Below, piece by piece: positions 2,575-20,317 of a stretch of DNA of 24,238 nt. The translations under genes were made by a program, and so were the position numbers. The notes under the pieces are model-generated. The model did no database searches. It was not told where the DNA came from and worked only from the letters and a program-made list of their open reading frames with translations. The DNA comes from a virus. Each line of letters starts with the position of its first letter. Position 1 is the first letter of the stretch. Location of the stretch: the IMG/VR virus record IMGVR_UViG_3300008266_000450, positions 1 to 24,238 of that record. One strand, written 5' to 3'.

Positions 2575-5500
2575 TTATTTACCTGAGCCAGCCCCTAAGT
2601 TAAACCACTTAGCTGCCTCTTCTGGATTCTGTGATCTGCTTATACCATTTAAGATTGGGATAAGATCTTCTAGCCTAGCTAAGAATTTATTATCTCCCTT
2701 TAAATGAGATCCTGATTTTCTCTCATAGTACATTCCTTCTGTATCTCCAGTTATCATTCCTCCTGTCTGTATCATAAATTGATTCAGTAATTCTGTTGTC
2801 TTACCAACAGTTCTGATAGTAGCACTTGGGGACTCAGCCATCTTTACAAATTCATTGGGCTTTAAGAACTGAGTTAATTCTGATTGCATTCTAAGAGCCT
2901 GATAGATTGCAAAGTGTTCTGCAAATGATTCATCATCATCGTCATCATCTTGCAATGCACTTAGGATAGCTAGACAAGTTATAACAAAACCAATCTGTAC
3001 CCCGAATCTCTTTACATTCTGTTTTTCAAAATCCTCCATCTGTTTGTAGACGGCAGCAAAGTTTCCTCTTTTAGCAAAACTTTCTTTGAATAATCTAAAT
3101 GTAGAATGTATCAAACCTTCTGATACTGTACCCAATTCTATGTCTCTATGTAATCCACCTCCAAGTCTAGAGATGTTACCATGTCCATAGTATCTTCTAA
3201 GTGATGGGACAAAGTATCTTCTGAACAGCATGATTAGTTTACCATACCATCTTCTTTGAAGCATTGCATCATCAAACTTATTCTTAACCTGGTTTGTCTT
3301 CTTAGTCAATCCAGAGATTCTATTTCTAAGTTGTATCCTTAGTTTGTTGGCATCCTTAACTCTAGAATCAATACTGTATCTACCAGTCTTCTCATCTAAG
3401 ATGAATACATCCCATAGGTTAGCAGGCTTACCTTCTTCATTGAGAATTACCTGTCCATTGGTATCTACAATCTTACCTTCGTAAGACTTCATCAAAGCTA
3501 GCATTCTAGTAAGAGCTGTCTCGTTTTCTGCTATTGATTGTAGCATCATAGGAGTATCTCTTACAGCTCTTAAAGCTTTAGGACCACTCTTATCTTTATA
3601 GATAGAACTGGTTACATTTGATAGAGCATCGAAGTATAAAATAGCTTGTCCAAGTTTAGTCTTAGGGGCAAATGCTTCGAAGTCTTTTAACTGACCTAAT
3701 CCTTGTAGAGACAAGTGGAACTGTGACTTAGCCCATGCAAGATCAGCTTTCCCAAAGAATTGTCCAGATACTCCTTCCTCAATCAGCCTTACGTTATCTA
3801 TCAGAAGCTGGTTAGTAGCTTGAAGAGCATTGAATGCAAGGTTGTTCAGTGCTGTATACCCTGCTAGTTTTCCAGCTAGTTTGTTTACAGATATCTCTTG
3901 TCCCAATCTATTGAGACTTTCCTTTAGTTCTGTCTCCCCAAAGAATACAGTATCAATCCATTCATCAAGATGTTTAAAATTAGCAGAATCAGTATCTGTA
4001 GTTTTATATCTTGTTTTACCTACCATATTAGATAGTCTATGGATGATAGGATTGCTATCAGCAGTAGTAGCTATAGTCTCTCTATTAGATACTATATCCC
4101 TCATAAGCATTACAGCTCCTTGAATCTCTGACTTTGCTTTGTACATGTCAGACATTCCTGCAAACTGAATGATAGAGCTAACCATATCCCTAGTTATCAT
4201 CTTTTCATCAGTAGGATTGGTATAGAAGATAGGGACTAGTTTATTTCCTGATTCTTTATTAGCATTAATGGCATCTCCGTAGCTAGTATCAGTAGAGAGG
4301 AAGTTGAATCCTTCTCTAGCTTTTAGCTTTATAGTATCTATAGCTCCATCTCTTTGTACTTTCTCTAGTCCATCAGATAAAATAAATGGGGCTACATAAC
4401 TAAAGTTCTCCCAAGAGTTACCAGGCATTTTGCCTTTTCCAATCTTAGTCTGGCTTTCTTTATACTGATCTAGGAGAGCAGTGTAATATTTAAATGCAGC
4501 TGGATTGTTCTGAAGAGCAGTAAACTTTGGATTTATATACTTAGCATTAGGCTGTACTGCTCTACCTTTAAATTGTTTTGTAGTAGGATCATATATCTTA
4601 CTAATTATAGAGTTAATCTCACTTAACTCATTCATGTAGTAAGCCATCTTATCCCCATCATTTTCTGCTGTAGCAAGGTTTAAGTTAGATTGGATATTAG
4701 TTTTCTCACCAAGTAATCTAACTAATGTAGCTTTAGAATCTGCACTGGGCTCTGAGTTCTGAGCATACCATTCTGATACTCCTCTATAAAAAGATCTAAT
4801 AGTTGCTGCATTACTTTTATCCTTGAACCACATGTTTCTCTGACTCTTATCTTCTGGGATGTTATACTTCTTCCCAAGATCTTCATACATCTTAGATTCT
4901 GCATTTCTATATGCAGTTACATCGTAAGGCTGAACAAATGATAATACTTTAATTGTTTTATATTTCCCACTCTCATTATCAAAGTATGAGTGATCTACTA
5001 ATTCAGTAATATCTTCGTTAAATTTATTAGCATCAAATCCAGTTCCCTTTACCTGGCTATACTCATCGTATGCTCCAGCAAGTTTGAAGATTACGTCTTG
5101 AGTATTTTGATTAGCCTCAAGCATTTTGTTCTTAACTGTAAGAGCAAACATCTGAAGACTAGCCTGAGAAGAATATACTAGTGGGTCTAATAGATAGCTG
5201 AAATAAGATTTATCTGTCTGAGCTTTTCTGAGCTCTGCTTCAATAGTATCCTTACCAATTCTCTTCTTCTCCATCTGCCTTATATTCAATTCTACTAAAG
5301 CTTGCTGGTAAGCATCATCTGTCAAAGTACCTTCTTTGTTAGCCCTTTTAAGTGCATTATACTCTGCATCTTTATCTATGGCTATAAGTCTTTTGTTCTT
5401 ATCAATGTTATCTATAATGCTATTAATCTGATCATTAATCTCAGGAGTATGATACTCCATGAGCATGTCTGCTATCATAGGGATACCTGTATTAAGATAG

Positions 5501-7224
5501 TCCTCATGTACAACATCCATTCTATCAATAGCATCTACTAGTGTCTTCTCCACACTGCTAAGCTTTGCATACTCTGGGTCAGTAGCTCTCTGCTCTTCAG
5601 TAAGTCTTCTATTCATTCTCTTAAGCTTAACAGCTACAAGAGATCTTACTCTCCCCATGATACTCTTACTCTTATCTACCCCTCCATAAAAGTCATTCAA
5701 ATACATGTTGACTTTATGTAGCTCTGACAATAGTCTAAGTCTATCTTCTTCCCCCATGTTCTCATTGTACTCCTCCTCAATTTTATTGAAGACTTCTTCT
5801 GCCCTTTTAGATAAAGAAGAAGTATAGGTAACAAACTCCATGAGGTCTTCTACTTGCTTTACCTTATCTAGTTTCTTCTCTAGTATCTCAAGTTTAGCAA
5901 CTGCTTTCTCATTAGCCTCTTCATCTCTTCTCTTAAGTCTGGCAATGTTTTCTTTAATACCTATCTTAACATCTGTAAGCAGATTATCAAACTTCTCAGC
6001 CAGGTCAGCTGTCCCTCTACTATCAGCTGATAAATATGTAATACTTTGAGTAAATCTAGTTTTATCAAATCTACCATCAAGCATAGTTCTAGCTAGGTCT
6101 TCTACTGCAGATTCATTAGTAAAGCCTAAAGCTTTTGCTATCTTCCTAAAGATTCTATTTACAATCTTCTGGAATTTATTAGGGTTCTGTCTATTAATTT
6201 TAGCACCAGCAAGACCAATAGCTGTAACAAGTACCTCTTTATCTAGAGCCTCTTTACTCAACTCTGGATATCTCTCTTTTACTTTAGCATATAACTCAGT
6301 CCCTTCTAGTTCCTTCATAGCCTGTTTTACTACAGGGTCGTTCTCCCCTAACAGCTCTACCAAGATGTGACTGAATTCATGGATGTGAGTATCTTCTGTA
6401 ATCTTTAGTGGGTTAAGTTTTACCACTGGATTCTTTCCAGATTCAGCAATAACTCTTCCTTTTACTTCTAGAGTAGGATCGATCTCAACATCTATATTAA
6501 CTCCAGATCTTTTAAAAGAATCCTGCATAGCCTTTATTTGATCGGCTACATTTCTGTAGGCTACGGGATCTACCTCTGCTCCAATATCTCTACTATCAGA
6601 TTTGAGATCATAGTTAGTCATCTCTACATCTGTAGCTGACTTAACAATGCTTGTCTCAGTAATTATAGCTTGAGTAAGTACTGGGGATAATGGGTTTCTT
6701 ACAAGTTGAAAGTTCTTACTTTCCTGTGACCCTCTTACGTGATTGCTAGTATACTGCTTGAGTTGTTCTCTATCGTATGGGCTAAGCTGCAATGGCTCTC
6801 TAAGTCTACGTAACTGATTCAACTGATCCTGGTCGATAGTTAGGTAGTAGTTGTAGTTCCTAAGTGGTGGTTGATTAAACGATGGGGAGAAGTTATCAGG
6901 TCTACCTTGAGCTTTAAATCCTTGAATTCTGAATACTCTTCCAGTAGCCCCATAGTTTACAGCCATGTGCATATTCAATCTTACAAGAGATTGTAAAGAA
7001 GAGCTATCTAAACTCTGTTTGCCACTCTTATCTGTAAGTATTGGCATAACAAGTTTACCTCCAGGGTTTACATACTGATGGTTAATTAAATCTTTATATA
7101 AGTCCTGGGCTGATACTTCTGCTCCAGACCTAAGTAGATCATCTATTTTATTGACTACCAGTGTCTCAGTTGGATTGGCTTTAACAACCCCGTCTGCTGT
7201 AATGTTTGATATCTGACAACTCAT
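2575..7224 (-). CDS. Giant virion-associated protein with HExxH metallopeptidase domain, 1549 aa
   Basis: Probably a packaged cargo protein, judged from its place directly after the virion RNA polymerase gene in the same operon (14-base gap). The clearest motif is THIHEFSHILVE with HEFSH at residues 282-286, the HExxH zinc site of zincins. Glu330 in KEVLVTAIG is a likely third ligand, 44 residues after the second His, and is followed by an amphipathic IVNRIFRKIAKAL helix. Residues about 405-530 are charged coiled coil. The C-terminal third includes a basic GKLIMLFRRYF segment, a hydrophobic stretch at about 1409-1424 that could cross a membrane once, and six consecutive Asp at 1426-1431. The start ATG at 7222-7224 lacks a Shine-Dalgarno sequence. 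Stop is TAA. Substrate and role are unknown: it could be a protease for virion maturation, a host-directed effector, or a mainly structural ejection protein. Confidence 0.8.
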   Translation of the reverse strand: MSCQISNITADGVVKANPTETLVVNKIDDLLRSGAEVSAQDLYKDLINHQYVNPGGKLVMPILTDKSGKQSLDSSSLQSLVRLNMHMAVNYGATGRVFRIQGFKAQGRPDNFSPSFNQPPLRNYNYYLTIDQDQLNQLRRLREPLQLSPYDREQLKQYTSNHVRGSQESKNFQLVRNPLSPVLTQAIITETSIVKSATDVEMTNYDLKSDSRDIGAEVDPVAYRNVADQIKAMQDSFKRSGVNIDVEIDPTLEVKGRVIAESGKNPVVKLNPLKITEDTHIHEFSHILVELLGENDPVVKQAMKELEGTELYAKVKERYPELSKEALDKEVLVTAIGLAGAKINRQNPNKFQKIVNRIFRKIAKALGFTNESAVEDLARTMLDGRFDKTRFTQSITYLSADSRGTADLAEKFDNLLTDVKIGIKENIARLKRRDEEANEKAVAKLEILEKKLDKVKQVEDLMEFVTYTSSLSKRAEEVFNKIEEEYNENMGEEDRLRLLSELHKVNMYLNDFYGGVDKSKSIMGRVRSLVAVKLKRMNRRLTEEQRATDPEYAKLSSVEKTLVDAIDRMDVVHEDYLNTGIPMIADMLMEYHTPEINDQINSIIDNIDKNKRLIAIDKDAEYNALKRANKEGTLTDDAYQQALVELNIRQMEKKRIGKDTIEAELRKAQTDKSYFSYLLDPLVYSSQASLQMFALTVKNKMLEANQNTQDVIFKLAGAYDEYSQVKGTGFDANKFNEDITELVDHSYFDNESGKYKTIKVLSFVQPYDVTAYRNAESKMYEDLGKKYNIPEDKSQRNMWFKDKSNAATIRSFYRGVSEWYAQNSEPSADSKATLVRLLGEKTNIQSNLNLATAENDGDKMAYYMNELSEINSIISKIYDPTTKQFKGRAVQPNAKYINPKFTALQNNPAAFKYYTALLDQYKESQTKIGKGKMPGNSWENFSYVAPFILSDGLEKVQRDGAIDTIKLKAREGFNFLSTDTSYGDAINANKESGNKLVPIFYTNPTDEKMITRDMVSSIIQFAGMSDMYKAKSEIQGAVMLMRDIVSNRETIATTADSNPIIHRLSNMVGKTRYKTTDTDSANFKHLDEWIDTVFFGETELKESLNRLGQEISVNKLAGKLAGYTALNNLAFNALQATNQLLIDNVRLIEEGVSGQFFGKADLAWAKSQFHLSLQGLGQLKDFEAFAPKTKLGQAILYFDALSNVTSSIYKDKSGPKALRAVRDTPMMLQSIAENETALTRMLALMKSYEGKIVDTNGQVILNEEGKPANLWDVFILDEKTGRYSIDSRVKDANKLRIQLRNRISGLTKKTNQVKNKFDDAMLQRRWYGKLIMLFRRYFVPSLRRYYGHGNISRLGGGLHRDIELGTVSEGLIHSTFRLFKESFAKRGNFAAVYKQMEDFEKQNVKRFGVQIGFVITCLAILSALQDDDDDDESFAEHFAIYQALRMQSELTQFLKPNEFVKMAESPSATIRTVGKTTELLNQFMIQTGGMITGDTEGMYYERKSGSHLKGDNKFLARLEDLIPILNGISRSQNPEEAAKWFNLGAGSGK

Positions 7225-7238
7225 CTTACAAAGTTAAT

Positions 7239-10200
7239 TTATCTACCACAAACTATAATACTATTATTCTCAGAAGGCTGGATTTTTATATCATTAGTAT
7301 ACGTTAATGATTGTACTATCTCTTGTATTCTTCCTGTAGCTTCTGATGAAGTTTTACCTGCTGGAAGAGAGTATACATTTTTATTTCTAAATCCAGTTTC
7401 TAGTCTAGCAAATAAGTTCTTCCCATTACCGTACTCCCCAACATTTATAAAGGTTCCTGTCTCCCCGTTATTAATATTTCTAAAGAAAACTACTTTATTA
7501 GGATTAGAACTAGTTAGAGTTTTAGTCTTACTGGTAAGATTATTATTACCCTCTCTAGGTATAATAGGTCTTCCTTCTGCTTTCATAGGACCAAACAACT
7601 GCAGGTATGTAACCAAGTCAGGAACTGTAAAGTAGTTAGTATCTTGTAAGAATGCTTTCTGATTATGGATATACTCCATAATACTCATTGGACTTCCACC
7701 TTCAACCTCTTGTTTAATTGTAAGAAACTCAGATGGAATTATGTCAGCATATGAACTAGCTCCTTGTCTAAATGCATTACTTAAGAATGTATGCATAGAT
7801 AGTTGTATACCTAAGTTCTTTATTTGTTTAGCCTGTGCAGCTAGTGCAGGATCTTGAATTACCCCGTTAACAATTTTGATAGAGTCAGCTGTAGCATTTA
7901 AGAAAATCTGAGGACTAAACATCATTGCTTTTAATGTATTAGTAAATCCTTGCTTCTCTGTTCTACTAAATCTAAATGAACCATCGAACTTAACTCCGTA
8001 GTATTTATTAGCTACGTCAATATCATCTTGGAAGTTAGATATAAACTTAGTAGCAGCTAATCTAGGGAACTGAGTTTTTAATTTAGATAACCTGGTACCT
8101 ATGTTATTAACAGGATCAGAATATAAACCACTAGAATACTTTTCTGATAAAAAGAAATTAAATGGAGAATCTTTCTTAAGCATCATGAGGAACATTATGT
8201 TCGAATCAGTTAACTCATGCATAGCTGAGGTAAATACATTTTTACCAGAAACCTCTTTAATCCTTTCCTTGAATGATAGAAAAGCTGGACTTGTTCTATT
8301 CTCAAACAATATAGATGCTACACCAAGACCGTTATCTATCAAGTTCTCATATCCTCTTTGGTATCCATAGATAGAGTTTGGACCTAAGAACTGGTCAATA
8401 ACACTTTCGTTATTATTAGGTCCAGTAAAGATTGTAGAGTTGTTTATTTCTCCAGTCTCTTCGTTAATTTCTGTATCAAAAGGTTTCCCCTTATCCTTAT
8501 AAGCTTGCATATTACTAAGCTTATTCATACCCTCCATAGCATCTGGGGTTACTCTCTTATATAAATCCAAGAGTTTTTTACCAGCTCTATTGAATGCTAC
8601 AAAGTTGTTTACGAACAGAAGTTGCTCTTGCAAGTTAACATTCTCTCTAGACAAGTTCTCAAGACTTGCTGCTTTCATTGGGTATGCTACTTCCCCATCA
8701 AAAGTCTCAGCTGATGTTTCAGGGAGAGTAATATTAGCCTTAGCCATCTCTACACGAATCTGTTTTTTAACAGTTGCAAAAGCAGCTTGTATCTTACTCA
8801 TGTCCCCGTTATACTTCTCGTTGATAATGTCTGTCATTACCCTTACATACTTCTGATTTAAGAAGTTAGTAGCTGTACGAGAATTATAGTCTGGATGAAA
8901 TCCTAAGAACAATGCTCTTACATTAGCAGTAACTAAAGAGTCATTGAGTTCATATTGTATAGGGGCCTTACCACTATCCACTGCAGCTGATAAGAATAGA
9001 GATCCTGATCTATCAGTAGTCATTCCATTAGAAGCTACTTTTAAGTATTCCATGTACTCAGTAACTTGTCCTGCTGCATCTTCTATCTTGATAGAGTAAT
9101 CCTTAGAGATTTTAACTATACCATGCTGAACTACATTTCGTCCAGATATGATATTAGCATAGATACCTCTAAGCTTATTACCAATCTGATTACGTATAAG
9201 TGCATCAGTCTCTGTAGTAATATCATTCCAGTTCTGCTCTAGTCCTAACTCAGGGATAGCTTCTTTTATTCTAGCTACTTCATCTTTTAAAGTAACATCA
9301 TCAAGTGGGGCTAGAGTTTCTTTAAAGTGAGCTGGGTTAGATAGTACAGCTTCCATTGTATCCAAGATAATGTTATCTAGTTCCTTGTATGATACATCTT
9401 GAATACTTTGCTTTTGTTCTGTAAGAGCTTTATAGTTAGGATTAATTTTGCTAACTCCGTACTTGCTTGTTGGATCCTGCTTTAGATGCGGGAACATCAA
9501 GAAGAGTTTATCTACGTCAAAGTCAGAACCCATCAACTTAATAAGTTGCCCAGGAACTACAATTGCTTTAGCATAGTTACTAGGAAGTACTGCTTTAATC
9601 TTTAGAATAATAGAGGCACTCTTATCAGCATTAGGGATACGATATCCTAGGATTCTTCTCAGTTCCTCTGGAACTTCATCCAAAGATTGACCAGGTTTTA
9701 CACCAAACTTTCTGAGTACATCTTCTCTTACCATGATCTCAGCATGCACAAGTCTCTGATTCTTACCTTGACCTTCAATAGTCAAGAACTTAAGATCATC
9801 ATCAGTTGCATGTCCACCAAGCTGAGCTACCTGAACTGCCTCATATCCACTAACCTTTTGCTTGAATACTCTGTTATTAAGCAGAGACATTATTATAGCT
9901 TCAAACTTCTTATTGTAGATTGGAAAGTCAAGTGGAGATGTAAATCTCGGGGCTCCAGTCTCATCAAACTCTATATTCAAAGCATTGAAGTAATTAGAGT
10001 GTAAGTCCCCATCTATAATCTGCTTATAAATGATATCTCTAATGTTCTTCATAACTTCAAGCTTAGCTGCATTAATAGCTTTAGGATCTTTAGTTCCAAT
10101 AGCTTCTTGAAGATCTGAAATCTTAAGTTCTTCTAGAGCAGTAAGTGTATCTCTTCTAAGCTTCTCCTCAATAGCACTATGGTATAGACTTTTAAGTCTA

Positions 10201-13200
10201 TCTCCTGTTGCTCTAAATTCCTTTCCAGATATACCATGATTATAAGTATACTCTGTATCATCTGCTACATTGGCAATTGTATTCTTTTTAACCTGACGGT
10301 TAGCAGTAACAGTTGGATTGTCTTTAACCTCAGGCATGGACTGTGGTTTTCTAAGACCCTTAGAGTCATTAGTCTTAACCATAGTAGTTTTATATTCCCC
10401 AGCTATCCCTGTTACCTTATGAATACCTTGCTTAACAAGTTTCTTACCTGTAACAAAGTTAGCAACGTGCACAGGTTGTAATCCTTGGTACTCTCCTACT
10501 GCCTCCATTCTCTGTCTCAAGTCTTCCAGCTGAGGGAAGTTCTTTGTATATGAGGTAAGCAGAACAGAGTATGAGTTCTTCTCAGATATAGGGGCAATAG
10601 ATTTACCTATAGGAGATAACTTCTCATAGTAGTTCTTTATAGGATAAATGGGGACATGATCTCCAGCCTTATATCCTTTTGGGGTAAGCCCTGGTTGGTA
10701 TACAAGTTCCCCAGTAACTTTATATGCTTTGTATGCAGCCTCTTCTTCTTCTCCCCACAGTCCTTCTCCCTGTGCTAACCCTCTATACATCTCAATACTA
10801 ATGTATGCCTGAGCATCAGTAGAGTCAAAGGTTCCAGGAGAGTATTGACTTGATATGGCAATGGCATCTGCTTCTGAAAAGCCAGCTGCAATCATCCCAT
10901 CTTTTAAGTTCTTTACTAAAATTTCTGCATACTTTGTCTGCCTTTCATTTATATTCAACTTCAAGTCTGCAAGAGTTATCTCGTTGTACTGGTCCATCAT
11001 ACCGTACATCTCTCCATTCATCCATGTAGGACTTCCTAAGTTGTCAGACTTTAAAGCATACTTACCACCTGGGGTAGTTAGATGCCCCATACGTTTGTAG
11101 AAGTCAGTTAAGTCTTTAGAATAAACTCTTGATCCACGGAATAGCTTAACCATCTCGTTTCTCATAATAGTTTCTTCGTATACAAAAGATTGTAGAACCT
11201 CATCTACACTTAAACCTTGAGCATTACCTAGACCTAATCTATTTACTTCTGTCCCTAATATTTCTTTGAGTTTAACAGCTTGACCATCCATGTAAGTAAT
11301 AACCTTCTCTACCATCATGTTTAGCTCTCTGTCTAGTATCTCAGAGTCTTGCTTAGATTTCTCACCAAGCTTACCAGTAACATAATCATCTATAAGATCA
11401 CTAATATACTTCTTAGCTGTTGGTTTCTCTACATTCTTAGTAAGCTCTTTGTCTAATACTATCTGAGCTCCATTCTCATCTGTAGCAGTAAACTGGAAGA
11501 ACCTAGAATCAAAGTGTCTTCCTAAGTGCTTACCATTCTCATCGTAAAACTGTCCTGTTATAGGATCATTGTGTACCCCTTCTATAATGAAAGACATGTC
11601 CTTAGTCTTAAGGGCCTGTTCTACTACTCTTTTAGCTTCAGCAATTCTTAAGAAGTCTTGTATAATTTGAGCTTTAACTACACTCTTCTTATCTGACTTA
11701 GGAAGTTTACTTTTTGAAATTCTTGGGGTTGTAAGTGATGAATATTTATTTCTATCAGCTTGTACAGATATAAATGTCTTAGCTGTATCCTTTCTTCCCC
11801 CATTAAGATATGCATTTATTCTTACAAGGTATGAGTCTATCTTAGAGATATCTTCGTATGTAAGTACATCGTCAGTCTCATCTTCTTTCCATGCATCTAG
11901 ATCTTGAACATTGAAGTCTGCTAGATACTCTGGAGATTCAAGCAAGTATCTGAATAGAATAGATTGGTATTCTTTAACTCCATGAGCCCCGATAAACGGA
12001 TCATTCATGTAATCCTGTAGAGTTTGCAGAGGTCTTTCTCTAATGCTATTTACAATCTCAACCATGTGTGATTGAGTGTTTGTAGCATACCTAGCCTTAC
12101 CATCAGCTCCTACGTGACTCTCCCCAGCTATGCTTAGTACTGGAGCAAACATATCAGCTAGAGTAAGAGCTACAGATGTATTATTAACTATAAAGTTAGA
12201 GTTATCCTTTATCCCAGTACTTAGGTTCTTAAGTAATCCTGTTATAATGTTTGCTACAGCCTCCCCTTTATAGAAGACAGTCTTTCCATTTGGATCAGTG
12301 TAATATGTACCATTAGCTACTAGCTTATAGATATTATCATAAGTATCACTGATATTAGAATTACTCCCAATATTCAATCCCATCTCCCACATAGCATCCC
12401 CTACAGCTTTTACTAGCTCAGGGATATTATTTCTATCGTAAGGAACTACAGGATTAGGAATTCTAGGAATTTTAATATTATCTAGAGCTTTTTTAATGCT
12501 GTCTACTTTATCCTTCTTAGCTGTAAGAATCATTACAGGTTCTTCCCCTTCTTCTACTGTAGTAGGTACTTCTTCATACACACCTCTAGAGTTAGTTGCT
12601 CCAGTAGCAATTACTTGCTTTCTCCACTTATCAACTACGTTTTCAGATTTACCCTTTCTATTAGGGTTGATCATATCTACATATAACTTTGATCCTACTT
12701 GTCTATTCTTCATAAGAACAAACTCAGTAGTTGCCAGTGCAAATGCATTGTACATCATAGCCATGTCCTGTACTCTTCCCTCAGTCTTCAACTTATCAAA
12801 GAATTGTACAATAGGGTTTAGTATCTCAGGCTTAAATACAGCTGCATTCTTTAGAGCAGTATACATGCTATTAAAGCTTCCCTTACCTGCAAAGATGTCT
12901 AGTAGTTCTTTGTAGACTACCTCTCTATCTAGGTATGTCTCTACCCCTAAACTATTTTTAGTACCAGACTTAATAGTAGATATAAGTTCTTTTACTTTAC
13001 CTGTAAGTCTCCTAGCTGGTGAGTCTTCCAAATTACTTTTACCGTATATTTTCTCTAGCTGTCCATCAATAACTGCTAGTTCATTTTCAATAAAGTCTGC
13101 CTCTTCTTCTGGGAGAGTTTCATTTTGCAACTCATAGTATTTATATTCATCTTTACCTATCAGCTTCAATCCATTCTCCTGTAGTTTATAAGCCAAAATA

Positions 13201-14330
13201 TCTCTCCAGCCATATTTAATTATATTACCTGTAACTGGTTGAAAGGTTGTATACCATGTATTGTAGATATCGTAGAAGGTATCTCTAACTTTTCTATTAT
13301 TTTCATAGCTTGCTTTAGCATTAAGACTAGCACCTAGTTCTTTTAAAGCATTAGCATTCTCTGGAGTTTTATTGTCCATAAATGCTTTTTCAGCATTGAA
13401 TAAAGCAATAGAGTTTTGTATGCTAAGTGGTTCCCCAGTTTCTCTATTTACATAAAGTCTCATAGCCATTGCATTAGCTAGTAAACCTTTATTAGTCTCA
13501 TCCCCTACTAAAGCAGTTACATCAAAGTTTTTCCCAAGCTTAGCTTTAGTATCTAAGAACACAGTATACAGTGTGTCCTTAACTTCATTGAATGCTTCCT
13601 CTGTATATTCATTTCTATACATGTAAGCAGTATCATGGCCTTGGAATTTCTGTGGATTTCTAAATACTCCTCTAGATGCAAAAGCATCTGACATCTTATT
13701 ACTTTCTACTAAAGAGTACAATTGCTTAATGGATAGATCGTCACTTATAAGTGACTTAATCCAATTCATTAAATCCTTAAACCACTTACCTAATTTACTT
13801 AGCAAGCCTTTACCACTTTCTCCTTCAGTCTTTACATACTCCATGAATTCATCAGCCATCTTCTCTTCTAATACTAGAAGTCTAGCCTCTGCATCCCCAA
13901 TAGGAAACAGTTCTTTTAGAACAGCAATCTCTTCTGTTGTTGGCTCACCAAACTGTTTAGCTGCCTCAGAGTATAACTGATCTCTTTGTGCTTGGCTAAG
14001 CATGGTTCTAAATACCATATGGTATCCTTCGTGGTATTCAGTTCCTGAATCAGCTGCAGTCCACAAATACATGCTAGCATTCTGTACATACCCATGTAAA
14101 AACTTATCTCCTATGTTCTTAGCATAGTCATAGAATGTTACATCCAGTCCTCTTTCATTAAGCCATTGCTTAGCAGCTGTGGCATTAATCTGTTCTGGAT
14201 TTTTAAGAGCTTGCTTTATCTCTTCTTTTCTATTCCAGATATAGTTAGCAGACTTCTCTCCGTACTTAGATACGAGAGTGTCAAACTCTTCTTTGATTTT
14301 TGGGTTGGATAGGTTTGGACAAAATGCCAT
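7239..14330 (-). CDS. Virion RNA polymerase of crAss-like type, with N-terminal HExxH domain, 2363 aa
   Basis: Likely a single-chain DNA-dependent RNA polymerase carried in the virion and ejected with the genome to transcribe early phage genes, as shown for phi14:2 gp66. The decisive motif is GSDFDVDKLFLMFP: Asp1603, Asp1605 and Asp1607 form the DxDxD Mg-binding loop of the beta'-type double-psi barrel. It is preceded by GYRIPNADKSAS and LPSNYAKAIVVPGQLIKL, the usual upstream strands in these proteins. A segment near residue 1490 (NNRVFKQKVSGYEAVQVAQ) also fits the family. The N-terminus (MAFCPNLSNP) leads into HEGYH at 100-104 with an EEKMADEF helix at 155-162, a zincin-like site, then an amphipathic KWFKDLMNWIKSLI helix. 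It is larger than phi14:2 gp66, which I recall as about 2,200 residues. ATG at 14328-14330, no clear Shine-Dalgarno, TAA stop. It is 11 bases downstream of the 1991-residue gene. Confidence 0.87.
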   Translation of the reverse strand: MAFCPNLSNPKIKEEFDTLVSKYGEKSANYIWNRKEEIKQALKNPEQINATAAKQWLNERGLDVTFYDYAKNIGDKFLHGYVQNASMYLWTAADSGTEYHEGYHMVFRTMLSQAQRDQLYSEAAKQFGEPTTEEIAVLKELFPIGDAEARLLVLEEKMADEFMEYVKTEGESGKGLLSKLGKWFKDLMNWIKSLISDDLSIKQLYSLVESNKMSDAFASRGVFRNPQKFQGHDTAYMYRNEYTEEAFNEVKDTLYTVFLDTKAKLGKNFDVTALVGDETNKGLLANAMAMRLYVNRETGEPLSIQNSIALFNAEKAFMDNKTPENANALKELGASLNAKASYENNRKVRDTFYDIYNTWYTTFQPVTGNIIKYGWRDILAYKLQENGLKLIGKDEYKYYELQNETLPEEEADFIENELAVIDGQLEKIYGKSNLEDSPARRLTGKVKELISTIKSGTKNSLGVETYLDREVVYKELLDIFAGKGSFNSMYTALKNAAVFKPEILNPIVQFFDKLKTEGRVQDMAMMYNAFALATTEFVLMKNRQVGSKLYVDMINPNRKGKSENVVDKWRKQVIATGATNSRGVYEEVPTTVEEGEEPVMILTAKKDKVDSIKKALDNIKIPRIPNPVVPYDRNNIPELVKAVGDAMWEMGLNIGSNSNISDTYDNIYKLVANGTYYTDPNGKTVFYKGEAVANIITGLLKNLSTGIKDNSNFIVNNTSVALTLADMFAPVLSIAGESHVGADGKARYATNTQSHMVEIVNSIRERPLQTLQDYMNDPFIGAHGVKEYQSILFRYLLESPEYLADFNVQDLDAWKEDETDDVLTYEDISKIDSYLVRINAYLNGGRKDTAKTFISVQADRNKYSSLTTPRISKSKLPKSDKKSVVKAQIIQDFLRIAEAKRVVEQALKTKDMSFIIEGVHNDPITGQFYDENGKHLGRHFDSRFFQFTATDENGAQIVLDKELTKNVEKPTAKKYISDLIDDYVTGKLGEKSKQDSEILDRELNMMVEKVITYMDGQAVKLKEILGTEVNRLGLGNAQGLSVDEVLQSFVYEETIMRNEMVKLFRGSRVYSKDLTDFYKRMGHLTTPGGKYALKSDNLGSPTWMNGEMYGMMDQYNEITLADLKLNINERQTKYAEILVKNLKDGMIAAGFSEADAIAISSQYSPGTFDSTDAQAYISIEMYRGLAQGEGLWGEEEEAAYKAYKVTGELVYQPGLTPKGYKAGDHVPIYPIKNYYEKLSPIGKSIAPISEKNSYSVLLTSYTKNFPQLEDLRQRMEAVGEYQGLQPVHVANFVTGKKLVKQGIHKVTGIAGEYKTTMVKTNDSKGLRKPQSMPEVKDNPTVTANRQVKKNTIANVADDTEYTYNHGISGKEFRATGDRLKSLYHSAIEEKLRRDTLTALEELKISDLQEAIGTKDPKAINAAKLEVMKNIRDIIYKQIIDGDLHSNYFNALNIEFDETGAPRFTSPLDFPIYNKKFEAIIMSLLNNRVFKQKVSGYEAVQVAQLGGHATDDDLKFLTIEGQGKNQRLVHAEIMVREDVLRKFGVKPGQSLDEVPEELRRILGYRIPNADKSASIILKIKAVLPSNYAKAIVVPGQLIKLMGSDFDVDKLFLMFPHLKQDPTSKYGVSKINPNYKALTEQKQSIQDVSYKELDNIILDTMEAVLSNPAHFKETLAPLDDVTLKDEVARIKEAIPELGLEQNWNDITTETDALIRNQIGNKLRGIYANIISGRNVVQHGIVKISKDYSIKIEDAAGQVTEYMEYLKVASNGMTTDRSGSLFLSAAVDSGKAPIQYELNDSLVTANVRALFLGFHPDYNSRTATNFLNQKYVRVMTDIINEKYNGDMSKIQAAFATVKKQIRVEMAKANITLPETSAETFDGEVAYPMKAASLENLSRENVNLQEQLLFVNNFVAFNRAGKKLLDLYKRVTPDAMEGMNKLSNMQAYKDKGKPFDTEINEETGEINNSTIFTGPNNNESVIDQFLGPNSIYGYQRGYENLIDNGLGVASILFENRTSPAFLSFKERIKEVSGKNVFTSAMHELTDSNIMFLMMLKKDSPFNFFLSEKYSSGLYSDPVNNIGTRLSKLKTQFPRLAATKFISNFQDDIDVANKYYGVKFDGSFRFSRTEKQGFTNTLKAMMFSPQIFLNATADSIKIVNGVIQDPALAAQAKQIKNLGIQLSMHTFLSNAFRQGASSYADIIPSEFLTIKQEVEGGSPMSIMEYIHNQKAFLQDTNYFTVPDLVTYLQLFGPMKAEGRPIIPREGNNNLTSKTKTLTSSNPNKVVFFRNINNGETGTFINVGEYGNGKNLFARLETGFRNKNVYSLPAGKTSSEATGRIQEIVQSLTYTNDIKIQPSENNSIIVCGR

Positions 14331-14341
14331 CTTTAATTTTA

Positions 14342-17300
14342 TTATGAGTTACATTCTCTTCTTACCATTTCTGCTAGATCTGGATTTCTTAAAGCTTCTT
14401 CAGCAGCTCTTTGTTCTGCCTCTGCTTCTGCATCTACACTGCTTTGTGGTCTTGATAGCACATATGAAAGTAGATCATTTGTAGTAGCAGCAGCTGCTTG
14501 AGTAGGTTTAGCAGTAGGTGCAGGTGCCTGACCTAATATGTCATATGTATCAGTAGTACTTTGAGGACCTGTTATCTCCATAACTGTTTCTTCAGGAGCA
14601 ACTTGAGTAGCTGCTTCTTCCTCTAGAGCATCGTATATGGCATTAATCTGATCTATCATTTCATTCTCAGTGGAAACTTGCTCAAACACTATCCCATCTT
14701 TTGCTCCACGAGTATTAAACGTAATACTAGACTCACCTGTTCGTCTATTAATTTTATTTATACCCCATATATTCTTTAGAGCTAATTGTCTTCTTCTCTC
14801 TATATCAGAAACAGGGGCTTCTGGTTCTATAGTAGCTAAAGCAGATTTGTAGTCCTCATCAAAAGATATGGCTACTTGTTTAGCCTGCAAGTCTTCTTCT
14901 ACTTGTGTTGGCTTTTCTACTGTGCTCAAGTTACTTACCTTCAAACCTACATCATAGAATACAGAACCATGATTGTTAGTTATTACATCTGCAGTTAGGA
15001 TAGCATTAGATCCTACTCCTTCCTCTCTTGCGGTAGATAAACTTGTATCACTAGTCAAAAAGTCGTAGTAGCTTGGATAAGTCTTATTGTCAATAGGAGA
15101 TGTAAATGCCTCATTAGCAGTAAGTAAAGCTTGTGACACTTGCATCTTTTTATTGAGCATAGCTTGTTTGAAATCCTCCCCTAATCTACTGCTAATATCA
15201 TCTCTATTTACAGAATCATTAGGAATTGGGAGAATAGCAGGATACCCTTTTTCATTAAGTCCAATCTCTATAAATGAGAATCTTGGGTTACCTCCAGACA
15301 ATCCAGCTTTTAACTCAGTCATGTTAAGTCTAACAAAAGCATTAGCTGTCTGAGAGAAGAAGGTTACTAGTTGAGTACCATTTAATAGAGTCTCTACAAG
15401 CATAAAGTTATTACCTTCTGCTTGCTTTAGATCTATGACATCCTCATTAGCTTGAGAAGGCATATCATATTGCCCACTCTCTTGCTCACTAATAAGTTGG
15501 TTAACACCTACTAAAGTCTCTAAAGTAGAGGCTGTTGGTATCTCTGCTTTTACAATAGAGTCAACTACAGTTGTAACAACCTCTGGGGTTACGTTCCTAG
15601 TATTACCAACTACCATAGTAGGGTTGCCATTAGGATCTCTAACGGGGAATACTACCTGTCCAGGAGTCAGTTTACTTAAATCAAAATTTACAGATTCTAT
15701 TCCAGGAATTAGTGTATCTCCAGGTGTAGCTAATCTCAACACCTTACCTGTTCCTTTCTGAATACCTACATACATTACAGTAGGTACTCCTCCATCTGGT
15801 CGGAATGGGGAAAATACTGGTTGTCCTCCTGTAGTTCTAGCATTAGAGAAATTACTAGAGTTATATCTCTTAGTAATTACAGTAGCAGTAGGGGTTAATC
15901 CTTGCTTATATAAGTTGTAGATATCCCTTCTATCTAGACCTTGTTCTCCTGGTGCCAATGCTGGATTAGCACTTTGTAGAAGAGCAATGTATACCTTCTC
16001 CCCAGTTGTTGGATTAATAGCTGTTGCATAAATAGGAACAGTCTCCCAATGTTTATCCTCTGGGAGAGTAGGAGATTGGCCTGTCCACCACTTAGTATCT
16101 TCTCTAACTTCAAATGTAATAGTGGTCCCAGCTGCTGCAAACTCAGGCAATCCTAGAATTCCTGGATCTACAATAATTGGTAATCCATCTACTGTCTGAG
16201 TTAAGTCGTTAGGCATAGGCATGAAGTCCTCATTGAGTACAACATGATGCTCTTCATTAGTTAGGAACTCTCCCTTAGCTAATCTAACATCTGACTCTCC
16301 AGCTGTTCTTACTACTGGGATAGTAGTCTCTACTGTTGGAACAACACTAGTAGCTTGAGGTGCTATTTCAGTAACAGGGATATTATTCTGTATATTTTTC
16401 TGCTCTTGTTCTCTGACAACTTCTGCTGCCATCCCAAGTTGCTGATTTATTAACTCAAGTGCATCAACACTTATTGGTGCCAGCCCTTGTTCTTGAGTTG
16501 CTGTTCCAGGATTGATATCCTTTGTTTCAGGGTCTTGCCCTTCAGTAGGTTGACCAGCTCTTTCGGCAGCGTCACGGTTTTGACGTAGTTCCTCAAGTTG
16601 TCTCTTTTCATTTACTTCGTTTATTTTGTTTCTACGTTTAGTAATCTTTGCTTTAACAACTCCAATTTTTTTATTGGTATCTTTTAAAGCTACTACAGCA
16701 CCTGCTACATCTTGATTTTCCCCATACTTGCCGTCTATAATATCCTTATATGCTTTAGCTACCTCTGTAAGTGGAGCTAATTCATTCTCTAGATTTTTAA
16801 TCTCTTCTTCTAATCCTGCTAAAATAAGATCTTCCTCACTCTCACTAAGAGTCTCGTCTACTACATTCTCAGTATTAACATCTGTATCAGGTAGAACATT
16901 TCTTTTCTTAGCTTCTTTTCTACTACGAAGAGTTTTAATCTTAGTATTTAAAAGTTGAGAAATTCTTTTCTTTATCTCTCTAAGCTCCTTAATCTGTGGA
17001 TCAGCATCAAATTCTTTTTTAGTGAATCCAGCCTCCATAGCAATCTGTCTCTCTAACTCTAGAAGCTCATTCATTTCTTCTAGATCAGCCTTCAAAGTTT
17101 CTACTTGTACTCTAAGCTGATCATCAGTTAGTCCTGCAGTTTTACTAAGATTATTTTTAGCAAGCTCCTCTTCAGTCTGAGTAGCTTCTGTATTCTCTTC
17201 AAACTTTTCTCTTACTGCAGCATCTTCTAAAGCAGCTTGAACTCTAGGTTCTAACTCCTCTCTAGCTTCTGCTGGTGACATAGTCTGGTCAGCTCTAATA

Positions 17301-20300
17301 GAGCTTGCTTGTAGCAGAATTACATATGAAAGAGAGTCTATAATTGCATTCTCTTTTTCTACTACTTCTGGATTAGATGATTCAGATACGTTTTCAAATC
17401 TCCAAGTAATTACATTACCTGTAGACATATCTGTTAATCTAACACCTTGAATATTTCCATCACTATCTCTAACAATAGCATCTAGTAGGTTGTCTTCTAG
17501 ATTGTAATAAGACTTACCATTAATTATAAATGCTGAACCATCAGGACTAATCATTATCTCCCCAAATGTTCTAGCTTCTATATCAGATAGAACTTCGTCA
17601 TAGCTTATATCTGTGCTAACAGGGGAGGGAGATTCTATTTGAATATTCTTACTATTAGCAGCATCTCTAATATCTTTCTGCCTCTTTACTCTTCTATATG
17701 CTACTTCTTCTGCAGGAGATAACTTATCTTCATCAATTGCATTGAACTCATCGTCAGTTAACTTCTCATACCCTCTAGCAAGAATATCCTCTTGTTCTTC
17801 TAGTTCTCTTCTTCTAATCTTAGCCAGGGCTAAATCCTCTGCAGAAATTCCTGTAGGAAGAGCTAAATCTAGTTCTTCTGTAGATTGTGCATTTTCTATA
17901 GTTGACTTAGCTTGCTGTGCTTTTTTATAAGTATCATTTAGTTTTCTTTTCTCTACCTCAGCTTCTACGAGCAAAGCAAGATCCTCAGGATTATTACGTA
18001 ATCCGTTATAACTCTGAATGGCAGCTTGCCTTTCCATAATCAAACGTCCTAAGCCATCGATAGTTTTTTCAAAATCCTTAGAATCTTCTGGATTAAGAGC
18101 AAACTTATTTGCTAAAATATCCTTTAGCTTTTCATTTAATTTATCTGTCTTCTTTCCTGTAACAGTTGACTTTACAGTTACGTTTCCATCTTTTGATATT
18201 TCTATCTGCCCAGTCTTAACCATGTAGTCAAAGTCCTCTTCAGGAACCTGAGCTAGAGCTGGAGCTTTCTCAAGTAGCTCTTGGTACTTATCTTTAATAA
18301 GATCATCAATACTATCTACATTCTCAAGTCTATACAAGAGTTGATTAGCATACATGTTTCTCAAACTAGACTCTAATGCTTTAGATTCTCTAATTTCTTT
18401 AGTCTCAAATGAATCAAGTATTCTAGAGAAGATTGCTTTAGATGGTTGTTGAGCTCTTATAATAGATTCTACTTGCTCTTGTCTCTTAATGCTTCTATTC
18501 ATCTTAGACTTGACATCATCTATAAGCTCAGCTTGTTCCATGCCAGTCTGTTCTTTCAAAGTCTTATTAACATCGTAACCCCATCTTTTCTTAAATTCAG
18601 TCTCATCAAGTTGTTTAAGATCGTCTATTTGCTCCATTGCATAGTCAAGAGCTCCTGACTTTCTATAGTGATTAGCTGTATTAGAGATGATTCTTCTTCT
18701 AATCTTTTCTGCTTCAGTAAACTCTCCCTTTTGTACAGCCTCATTCATATCCTTAACCAGAGATAAGTTATTTTCTGTATTCTCCATATTTTCTAGAACT
18801 TTTGCAAAAGATCCAGAGTTTAGAATATCGAGAGCTTTCTTAGTATTTGCAGTTTTCTCTTGGGCAAACTTCTTATCAGCTCCAGCAAGTCTTCCAAGCA
18901 TTCCTGTTCCTCCTCCTACAAGAGCACCAATAAGCATGCTCTCCAATCCCTCTTTAGTTCCTACTGTATTGGCTAAGGCTTTACTAAAAGATTCAGCCAT
19001 ATCCCCAACACCATCAGCAAACTTATCTGAGTAATAGTCCCTAGATAATTCAGAAGCTGTAAACTGTGCTCCTTCTTGGAAAGCTTCAGTTGCAGAATTC
19101 TTTATTGGGGCTCCAAAGAGTCTATTAGCTTTAGCAAATGCTCTTGCCATTCCCTTCTCTGGAATGGCTTCTATCCATTTACCATCAACTTTTTTAATAC
19201 CATATGTTAAAGATTCAGAAGCTGGCTTACCTGTTTGGAGCATTTTTCCAAACATGATCATATTAGTAGTTGCAAGAATAGGAAGGTTTATACTAAAGGT
19301 TAAGTTACCTGCAGCGGCACCTGATGCTACAATTCCTTCTTCTACATCTGCTGGCATTTCTTGACCTGGATTCTCTTCCTCCCATTTAGCCTTCTGCTCT
19401 TCAATAAATCTATTCTTAGTCTCTCTAGCTTCTACAGATGCTTCAGCTAATGACATATGTAAGCCTACACTTAAGTGTTTAGCAGCTGTTTTGATATTGG
19501 CTCTTCTAGCCATAGCTGTTAAGCCATCATCTATTCCAGCTGCAAAGTTTGGGGCATATGGGGCATTTACAACCTTAGCTGCATTGTATGCTTGGAACTG
19601 TTTACTTCCGAACTTTGCAGCATCTTGAGTAACATCTAAAGCTTTATCAGTTGCTTGAGCTATCTTCCCCATCCTTCCTGCATTAGCCATCTTTGCAAGC
19701 ATAGCTCCCTCACCAACACCTAACCACATAGTAGCCATAGAACCTACTGTGTATCCAACACCGTTGGCAAATTTATCAGCCCAGAAGTTCATAGTTCCCA
19801 GACCCTCTACTAATCCTGCTTTCTCTTCTTGTTTAGTGTAGTAGTTGGGCATGTTTACTCTTGCCCAATTGTTCACATCATCTATAGTTCTTCCTACAGG
19901 GTTATCATAGTAGCTATGATTTTCTCCAAATGCTAAGTTTAATAATCCCCCAACTACACCAACAGTATTTTCTGCAAGAGCTCCTACAGCAGTAATACCT
20001 GCTTTAGTTAATCCATATCCTAATTGCTCTCCCCATGTTTGGTTCTGAGCTCTAGTATCATTCCAATCAATAAATGCATTTCTTGCTACCCCGTAACTTG
20101 TATAGCTTTCTAAAGGATCAGTATACGTATTAGTTAACCTGACTGTTCCAGCAGCAATATCTAATCCATCAAATCCATACTGTCTTCCTTTTCCAGGATT
20201 TAGATATGTACCAGACTCACGTTGTACAGCTGATATTAATGGATTACCAGGCTTTAACTGTTCTTGGGTTAAGCCTGTTTCTGCAGATACAGCATTTAAT

Positions 20301-20317
20301 AATGGGTTATTCGACAT
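14342..20317 (-). CDS. Giant putative ejection/cargo protein with membrane-like segments and coiled coils, 1991 aa
   Basis: No enzyme motif recognised. The N-terminal quarter holds several Gly/Ala-rich hydrophobic segments: about 103-131 (ITAVGALAENTVGVVGGLL), 186-203, 328-358 (ASGAAAGN...LPILATTNMIMF) and 459-478 (SMLIGALVGGGTGMLGRLAG). The phrase EAFQEGAQFTASELSRDYY at 411-429 precedes the last one. This resembles internal virion proteins that insert into the host envelope during DNA ejection. Residues about 490-580 are helical, and 1055-1140 and 1155-1245 form long charged coiled coils. Residues about 1370-1650 are richer in Pro, Gly and strands, and the tail is Ala/Glu-rich. It lies just upstream of the polymerase gene and three bases after the 758-residue gene. 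Start ATG at 20315-20317, TAA stop. A role as envelope channel or polymerase carrier is inference. Confidence 0.75.
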   Translation of the reverse strand: MSNNPLLNAVSAETGLTQEQLKPGNPLISAVQRESGTYLNPGKGRQYGFDGLDIAAGTVRLTNTYTDPLESYTSYGVARNAFIDWNDTRAQNQTWGEQLGYGLTKAGITAVGALAENTVGVVGGLLNLAFGENHSYYDNPVGRTIDDVNNWARVNMPNYYTKQEEKAGLVEGLGTMNFWADKFANGVGYTVGSMATMWLGVGEGAMLAKMANAGRMGKIAQATDKALDVTQDAAKFGSKQFQAYNAAKVVNAPYAPNFAAGIDDGLTAMARRANIKTAAKHLSVGLHMSLAEASVEARETKNRFIEEQKAKWEEENPGQEMPADVEEGIVASGAAAGNLTFSINLPILATTNMIMFGKMLQTGKPASESLTYGIKKVDGKWIEAIPEKGMARAFAKANRLFGAPIKNSATEAFQEGAQFTASELSRDYYSDKFADGVGDMAESFSKALANTVGTKEGLESMLIGALVGGGTGMLGRLAGADKKFAQEKTANTKKALDILNSGSFAKVLENMENTENNLSLVKDMNEAVQKGEFTEAEKIRRRIISNTANHYRKSGALDYAMEQIDDLKQLDETEFKKRWGYDVNKTLKEQTGMEQAELIDDVKSKMNRSIKRQEQVESIIRAQQPSKAIFSRILDSFETKEIRESKALESSLRNMYANQLLYRLENVDSIDDLIKDKYQELLEKAPALAQVPEEDFDYMVKTGQIEISKDGNVTVKSTVTGKKTDKLNEKLKDILANKFALNPEDSKDFEKTIDGLGRLIMERQAAIQSYNGLRNNPEDLALLVEAEVEKRKLNDTYKKAQQAKSTIENAQSTEELDLALPTGISAEDLALAKIRRRELEEQEDILARGYEKLTDDEFNAIDEDKLSPAEEVAYRRVKRQKDIRDAANSKNIQIESPSPVSTDISYDEVLSDIEARTFGEIMISPDGSAFIINGKSYYNLEDNLLDAIVRDSDGNIQGVRLTDMSTGNVITWRFENVSESSNPEVVEKENAIIDSLSYVILLQASSIRADQTMSPAEAREELEPRVQAALEDAAVREKFEENTEATQTEEELAKNNLSKTAGLTDDQLRVQVETLKADLEEMNELLELERQIAMEAGFTKKEFDADPQIKELREIKKRISQLLNTKIKTLRSRKEAKKRNVLPDTDVNTENVVDETLSESEEDLILAGLEEEIKNLENELAPLTEVAKAYKDIIDGKYGENQDVAGAVVALKDTNKKIGVVKAKITKRRNKINEVNEKRQLEELRQNRDAAERAGQPTEGQDPETKDINPGTATQEQGLAPISVDALELINQQLGMAAEVVREQEQKNIQNNIPVTEIAPQATSVVPTVETTIPVVRTAGESDVRLAKGEFLTNEEHHVVLNEDFMPMPNDLTQTVDGLPIIVDPGILGLPEFAAAGTTITFEVREDTKWWTGQSPTLPEDKHWETVPIYATAINPTTGEKVYIALLQSANPALAPGEQGLDRRDIYNLYKQGLTPTATVITKRYNSSNFSNARTTGGQPVFSPFRPDGGVPTVMYVGIQKGTGKVLRLATPGDTLIPGIESVNFDLSKLTPGQVVFPVRDPNGNPTMVVGNTRNVTPEVVTTVVDSIVKAEIPTASTLETLVGVNQLISEQESGQYDMPSQANEDVIDLKQAEGNNFMLVETLLNGTQLVTFFSQTANAFVRLNMTELKAGLSGGNPRFSFIEIGLNEKGYPAILPIPNDSVNRDDISSRLGEDFKQAMLNKKMQVSQALLTANEAFTSPIDNKTYPSYYDFLTSDTSLSTAREEGVGSNAILTADVITNNHGSVFYDVGLKVSNLSTVEKPTQVEEDLQAKQVAISFDEDYKSALATIEPEAPVSDIERRRQLALKNIWGINKINRRTGESSITFNTRGAKDGIVFEQVSTENEMIDQINAIYDALEEEAATQVAPEETVMEITGPQSTTDTYDILGQAPAPTAKPTQAAAATTNDLLSYVLSRPQSSVDAEAEAEQRAAEEALRNPDLAEMVRRECNS

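Follow-up and report, generated by a model that had tools for sequence, protein, structure and literature searches.

The crAss-like phages of the gut and the sea carry a giant RNA polymerase inside the virion, with which they initiate transcription after entering the host. The locus analyzed here, a stretch of viral DNA of 24,238 nucleotides (hereafter, the window), encodes a protein of 2363 residues, P0001, and raises the question of whether this protein is such a polymerase, as the original prediction proposed from a DFDVDK motif. The reading frame and the motif lie at the following positions.

7239–14330, minus strand: P0001, 2363-residue virion-type RNA polymerase, counterpart of phi14:2 gp66 and crAss001 gp50 by tblastn, profile, and structure matches
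9507–9524, minus strand: DFDVDK catalytic loop, residues 1603–1608, invariant in alignments and aligned to DFDID of 6VR4

Sequence relatives and the DFDVDK motif

The frame of P0001 is unbroken across 2363 codons. The segment GSDFDVDKLFLMFP corresponds to residues 1601–1614, and its predicted location and the coordinates of DFDVDK matched the open reading frame on the minus strand exactly. By chance alone, a protein of the length and composition of P0001 would contain about 0.48 DxDxD motifs, and the motif by itself is therefore not significant and proves little. This expectation of roughly one chance motif per two such proteins would suit a large structural protein that carries DxDxD by coincidence and has no polymerase activity, as would the fact that Pfam and PHROGs did not recognize P0001 and gave nothing useful on it. 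PADLOC found nothing, a phmmer search of the PDB with the single sequence of P0001 gave no match, and a scan for close relatives with P0001 alone likewise gave none; relatives emerged when the scan was performed with an alignment.

A tblastn search of phage records with P0001 returned 79 relatives, mostly from crAss-like phages and many of them annotated as RNA polymerase, with a best E-value of 1e-20. Among them were crAss001 gp50 (5e-20) and phi14:2 gp66 (4e-10), the latter being identical in sequence to the solved chain 6VR4. The identity of the P0001 core to known members was 20–24%. A profile of the window's own clade, which was made from the window and its nearest kin and contained no phi14:2 sequence, matched 6VR4 at 5.8e-55 with DFDVD aligned to DFDID; the comparison with the phi14:2 gp66 structure that had been suggested as a check was thus positive.

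The DxDxD of P0001 is placed correctly within the region that aligns to known crassvirus RNA polymerases. In 10 diverse polymerase sequences, the Gly and the three Asp residues of the motif were invariant, and about 20 other residues, including several Lys and Arg, were invariant in the same sequences. GSDFD-D was invariant in 56 sequences, most of which had been fetched using a GSDFD-D-type motif as the search pattern, and motif frequencies among the IMG/VR loci are biased for the same reason. The residues conserved in P0001 are K1079/R1080, D1172, K1232, K1251, K1297, Q1346, R1564, D1603/1605/1607, and D1785, of which Asp1603, Asp1605, and Asp1607 are predicted to be the Mg2+ ligands.

The original prediction had also singled out the Val of DFDVD, assigning it to a third variable position, as a special feature of this protein. 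This part did not hold: DxDxD has two variable positions, and Val occupies the second. None of the 12 reference polymerases with a readable motif had Gly at this site, while seven had Val and five had Ile. DFDVD is therefore normal for crassvirus polymerases, and Val was ruled out as a distinguishing mark of P0001.

Predicted structure of P0001

P0001 was modeled in two parts, residues 960–2159 and residues 1–980, and the following two regions were delimited by comparison with known structures.

8289–11165, minus strand: two-barrel catalytic core, residues ~1056–2014; residues 97–1055 of the model align with QDE-1 646–1188 (Z ~11), inside the 6VR4 match (Z 25.6)
7854–13622, minus strand: part collinear with phi14:2 gp66, residues 237–2159; residues 237–947 correspond to 6VR4 96–757 and residues 960–2159 to 6VR4 750–1944

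The AlphaFold2 model of residues 960–2159, based on the alignment of 56 sequences, had a pLDDT of 88.7 and a pTM of 0.86. In this model, strands 614–623 and 630–633 precede the catalytic loop and strand 649–653 follows it (model numbering; adding 959 gives the protein numbering). In a Foldseek search of the PDB, the best match of the model was 6VR4 (2.7e-31), and the next was QDE-1 (2.8e-3). VIA-align superposed the model on 6VR4 with a Z-score of 25.6 over 1016 residues at 3.5 Å, covering residues 750–1944 of the chain. RDR2 and QDE-1 (Z ~10–11), the phage polymerases 8F5M and 8F72 (Z ~8–9), and the largest subunits of cellular multisubunit polymerases (Z ~7.5) came after 6VR4. QDE-1, RDR2, and the P23-45-type phage polymerases share a single-chain two-barrel core with P0001 (Z ~8–11) but match it much more weakly than 6VR4 does. 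The alignment with QDE-1 (646–1189) spans both barrels, and P0001 is accordingly predicted to be a single chain with two double-psi barrels, the architecture that the original prediction had expected structure prediction to reveal.

The model of residues 1–980 was weaker, with a pLDDT of 76. Residues 237–947 in this part matched residues 96–757 of 6VR4 with a Z-score of 13.4 over 547 residues, and region 46–220 matched mainly zincins, as described below. Since both modeled parts match 6VR4 and region 46–220 matches mainly zincins, P0001 is collinear with gp66 and carries, in addition, a zincin-like module at its N-terminus.

The tblastn relatives, the 6VR4 profile and structure matches, and the invariant residues beyond the motif bear out the assignment of P0001 as a crassvirus-type two-barrel polymerase. 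They also refute, as far as sequence and predicted fold go, the reading of DxDxD as a chance motif: given the strength of the profile match, the high-confidence model, and invariant residues throughout the region, its probability is practically negligible.

Gene cassette and zincin domains

P0001 is encoded in a cassette of minus-strand genes, which contains the following other features.

2575–7224, minus strand: P0002, 1549 residues, counterpart of phi14:2 gp65 ("RNA polymerase associated"; blastp 2e-32) and, by position, of crAss001 gp49
14342–20317, minus strand: P0003, 1991 residues, counterpart of crAss001 gp47 (blastp 4e-23; PHROG 32390, 2e-21) and, by position, of phi14:2 gp67
20321–22597, minus strand: P0004, 758 residues, in the position of phi14:2 gp68 by gene order only; homologues in the related loci L016, L020, and L021
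22603–24219, minus strand: P0005, 538 residues, frame open to the window end, in the position of phi14:2 gp69 by gene order only; homologues in L020 and L021
13671–14198, minus strand: N-terminal zincin-like metallopeptidase domain of P0001, residues ~45–220, with HExxH and downstream EE-x-x-A conserved in relatives; the modeled region 46–220 matches several zincin folds at Z ~5

The minus-strand order is P0005, P0004, P0003, P0001, and P0002, with 3–14 bases between the frames. This order is that of gp69-gp68-gp67-gp66-gp65 in phi14:2, where the proteins were annotated from virion MS/MS, and the gp67/gp47-like and gp65-like partners are present beside P0001. In crAss001, gp45, 46, 47, 49, and 50 were detected in virions (PMC10172136). 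P0004 matched no named phage protein, and the candidate identification of P0004 and P0005 with crAss001 gp45 and gp46 was dropped since sequence comparison gave no tie. Plus-strand replication and repair genes, namely an exonuclease fragment and a uracil-DNA glycosylase identified by Pfam, converge on the cassette.

The gene order also bears on whether P0001 is packed in the virion or is instead a two-barrel RNA polymerase that the infected cell produces to transcribe later genes. Phage P23-45 possesses two-barrel enzymes of both kinds, virion and non-virion (PMC10770324), and 8F72 and 8F5M, which are of the non-virion kind, occur further down the list of structures matched by P0001. However, P0001 lies in the middle of the cassette and adjoins homologues of gp65 and gp47, both of them virion proteins; the virion enzyme 6VR4 matches it far better than any other structure; and the giant size and attached peptidase of P0001 suit injected proteins. 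Synthesis after infection for later genes is therefore improbable.

The attached peptidase is the zincin-like domain at the N-terminus. HEGYH occupies residues 100–104 (14019–14033) of P0001, and both this motif and EEKMA (155–159) are conserved in relatives, with Glu156 being a candidate third ligand. The model of region 46–220, which is of moderate confidence, matched mainly zincins, such as PPEP, ArdC, and PprI, with Z-scores of about 5. HExxH begins at residue 100, 1503 residues ahead of the active site, and the corresponding spacing is about 1360–1560 in many relatives, both where the gene is fused to the neighbor upstream of it and where it is separate. The same zincin motif was found near the C-terminus of crAss001 gp47 and, in Dulem virus 41, near that of the protein encoded upstream of the polymerase; p-crAss gp45 also has HExxH near its end, which is possibly the same zincin. 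Since this first zincin is N-terminal in P0001 but C-terminal in the neighbors of the crAss001 and Dulem virus 41 polymerases, the gene boundary seems to shift around it. A second zincin motif, HEFSH, was found at residues 282–286 of P0002 (6367–6381), and phi14:2 gp65 has its own at residue 245.

Of the known systems compared with P0001, phi14:2 gp66 is collinear with residues 237–2159 and has the same fold, active-site loop, and gp67-gp65 flanking order. The two proteins differ in that core identity is about 24%, the loop of gp66 reads DFDID in place of DFDVD, and gp66 has no HExxH, whereas P0001 carries an extra zincin domain of ~220 residues at its N-terminus. In crAss001, gp50 has a GSDFDVDK identical to that of P0001 and gp47 is homologous to P0003, but the first zincin lies toward the C-terminal end of gp47 and not at the front of the polymerase, and gp47 is encoded on the strand opposite to gp49 and gp50, while all cassette genes in the window are collinear. 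In cr50_1 (Suoliviridae), the zincin is 1489 residues before DxDxD in one chain, similar to the 1503 residues in P0001, but the polymerase is fused to the upstream region to form a 4775-residue protein and falls on a separate branch of the tree. The N4 virion RNA polymerase resembles P0001 in its working, being a giant polymerase that is injected and that carries a fused metallopeptidase domain (PMC5512222), although it is of the T7 type, not two-barrel, and is only analogous.

These results suggest that P0001 very probably serves a crassvirus-type phage as its catalytic RNA polymerase, with two double-psi barrels in one chain and a DFDVD loop that binds the catalytic Mg2+, and that this cassette-encoded enzyme is most likely packed in the virion, enters the host, and transcribes early genes. 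By analogy with the gene order of phi14:2 and crAss001, in which the homologues are virion proteins, P0001 would be packed into the virion beside its partner proteins P0003 and P0002 and passed into the host along with the phage DNA. By homology with the same two phages, it would then refold in the host cell and transcribe early phage genes independently of the host polymerase. For phi14:2, packaging, injection, refolding, and host-independent early transcription have been reported (PMC10136315; PMC7886860), as have DNA-dependent RNA synthesis and rifampicin-resistant early transcription (PMC10136315). As for the N-terminal zincin domain, its targets are probably the giant injected proteins or proteins of the host. 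In the case of polyvalent proteins, zincins have been proposed to process giant injected chains, and the polymerases of N4 carry fused domains of this kind (PMC5512222).

Lineage of P0001 and cassettes with no detected polymerase core

In a tree of 88 polymerases, the window grouped with four related loci, L015–L018 (support 100), inside a clade of 13 rows (support 99). None of the Steigviridae, Intestiviridae, or Suoliviridae rows in the tree falls within this larger clade; the deep forks of the tree are weak, Suoliviridae are represented in it by a single reference, and Crevaviridae are not represented. L015, which belongs to the five-row clade of the window and has about 50% core identity to P0001, is on a contig bearing a crassvirus portal (1.4e-55) and capsid (1.7e-24); the 24-kb window itself holds no capsid, portal, or early promoters. 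P0001 is a new, distant, deep-branching member of the known crassvirus virion polymerase family, and its own lineage, which is well supported, contains none of the named families sampled.

Three matches were found in bins assigned to Rickettsiales, Aenigmatarchaeota, and Neisseriaceae. All of these may be phage contigs misplaced into bins, and no host is therefore claimed. One, L109 (CP070801.1), is a crassvirus-type polymerase in a deposited Aenigmatarchaeota "chromosome", in which gaps of 100 N every few kilobases show a scaffolded bin, so that contamination is probable. Another, L108 (RXKF01000051.1), is a fused polymerase of 4526 residues on a 72-kb contig with 22.6% G+C that was binned as Rickettsiales. 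L068 and L070 are extremely long-branched polymerases with GSDFDVDS, and the profile made from 10 sequences misses L068.

Two phages carry parts of the cassette in which the profile detected no polymerase core. Leptolyngbya phage Lbo-JY46 (PP438436.1, 5218–18124) encodes a 2748-residue protein whose C-terminus is homologous to P0002 and which also bears two HExxH motifs and a GNAT domain; its upstream protein resembles the N-terminus of P0003, and it has a distant crassvirus-type portal. No suitably placed DxDxD was found in its P0002-like and P0003-like proteins. Because the profile also misses the real but very divergent polymerase L068, absence of the core from Lbo-JY46 is likely, not proven. 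In Cellulophaga phage phi17:2 (NC_021798.1, 13713–19586), the N-terminal part of P0003 has a match (5e-26) in gp39, a structural protein of 1957 residues.

The retention of the flanking proteins by Lbo-JY46 suggests that the cassette can be useful without catalysis, and P0001 might by extension be a degenerate, inactive polymerase kept as an injected structural protein. P0001 retains all three Asp residues, the neighboring glycine, and the conserved Lys and Arg in an uninterrupted frame, which makes such degeneration very improbable. A tentative reading of the cassette, which we consider possible but rather less likely than not to be correct, is that the polymerase is an exchangeable module in an injected array of polyvalent proteins, bracketed by two zincin peptidases that process the giant chains. 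The gene boundary would shift about the first of these zincins, and certain phages, a cyanophage among them, would retain the peptidases and the injection proteins at the flanks but no polymerase.

With P0001, the crassvirus virion polymerase family gains a well-supported lineage that lies outside the named families sampled, and the relatives L015–L027 allow the active site and the partner proteins to be compared. The shifting first zincin and the cyanophage cassette with no detectable polymerase core suggest that the gp65-like and gp67/gp47-like proteins deserve a broader description than "RNA polymerase associated", and they give grounds for testing whether peptidases process the giant proteins that are injected.
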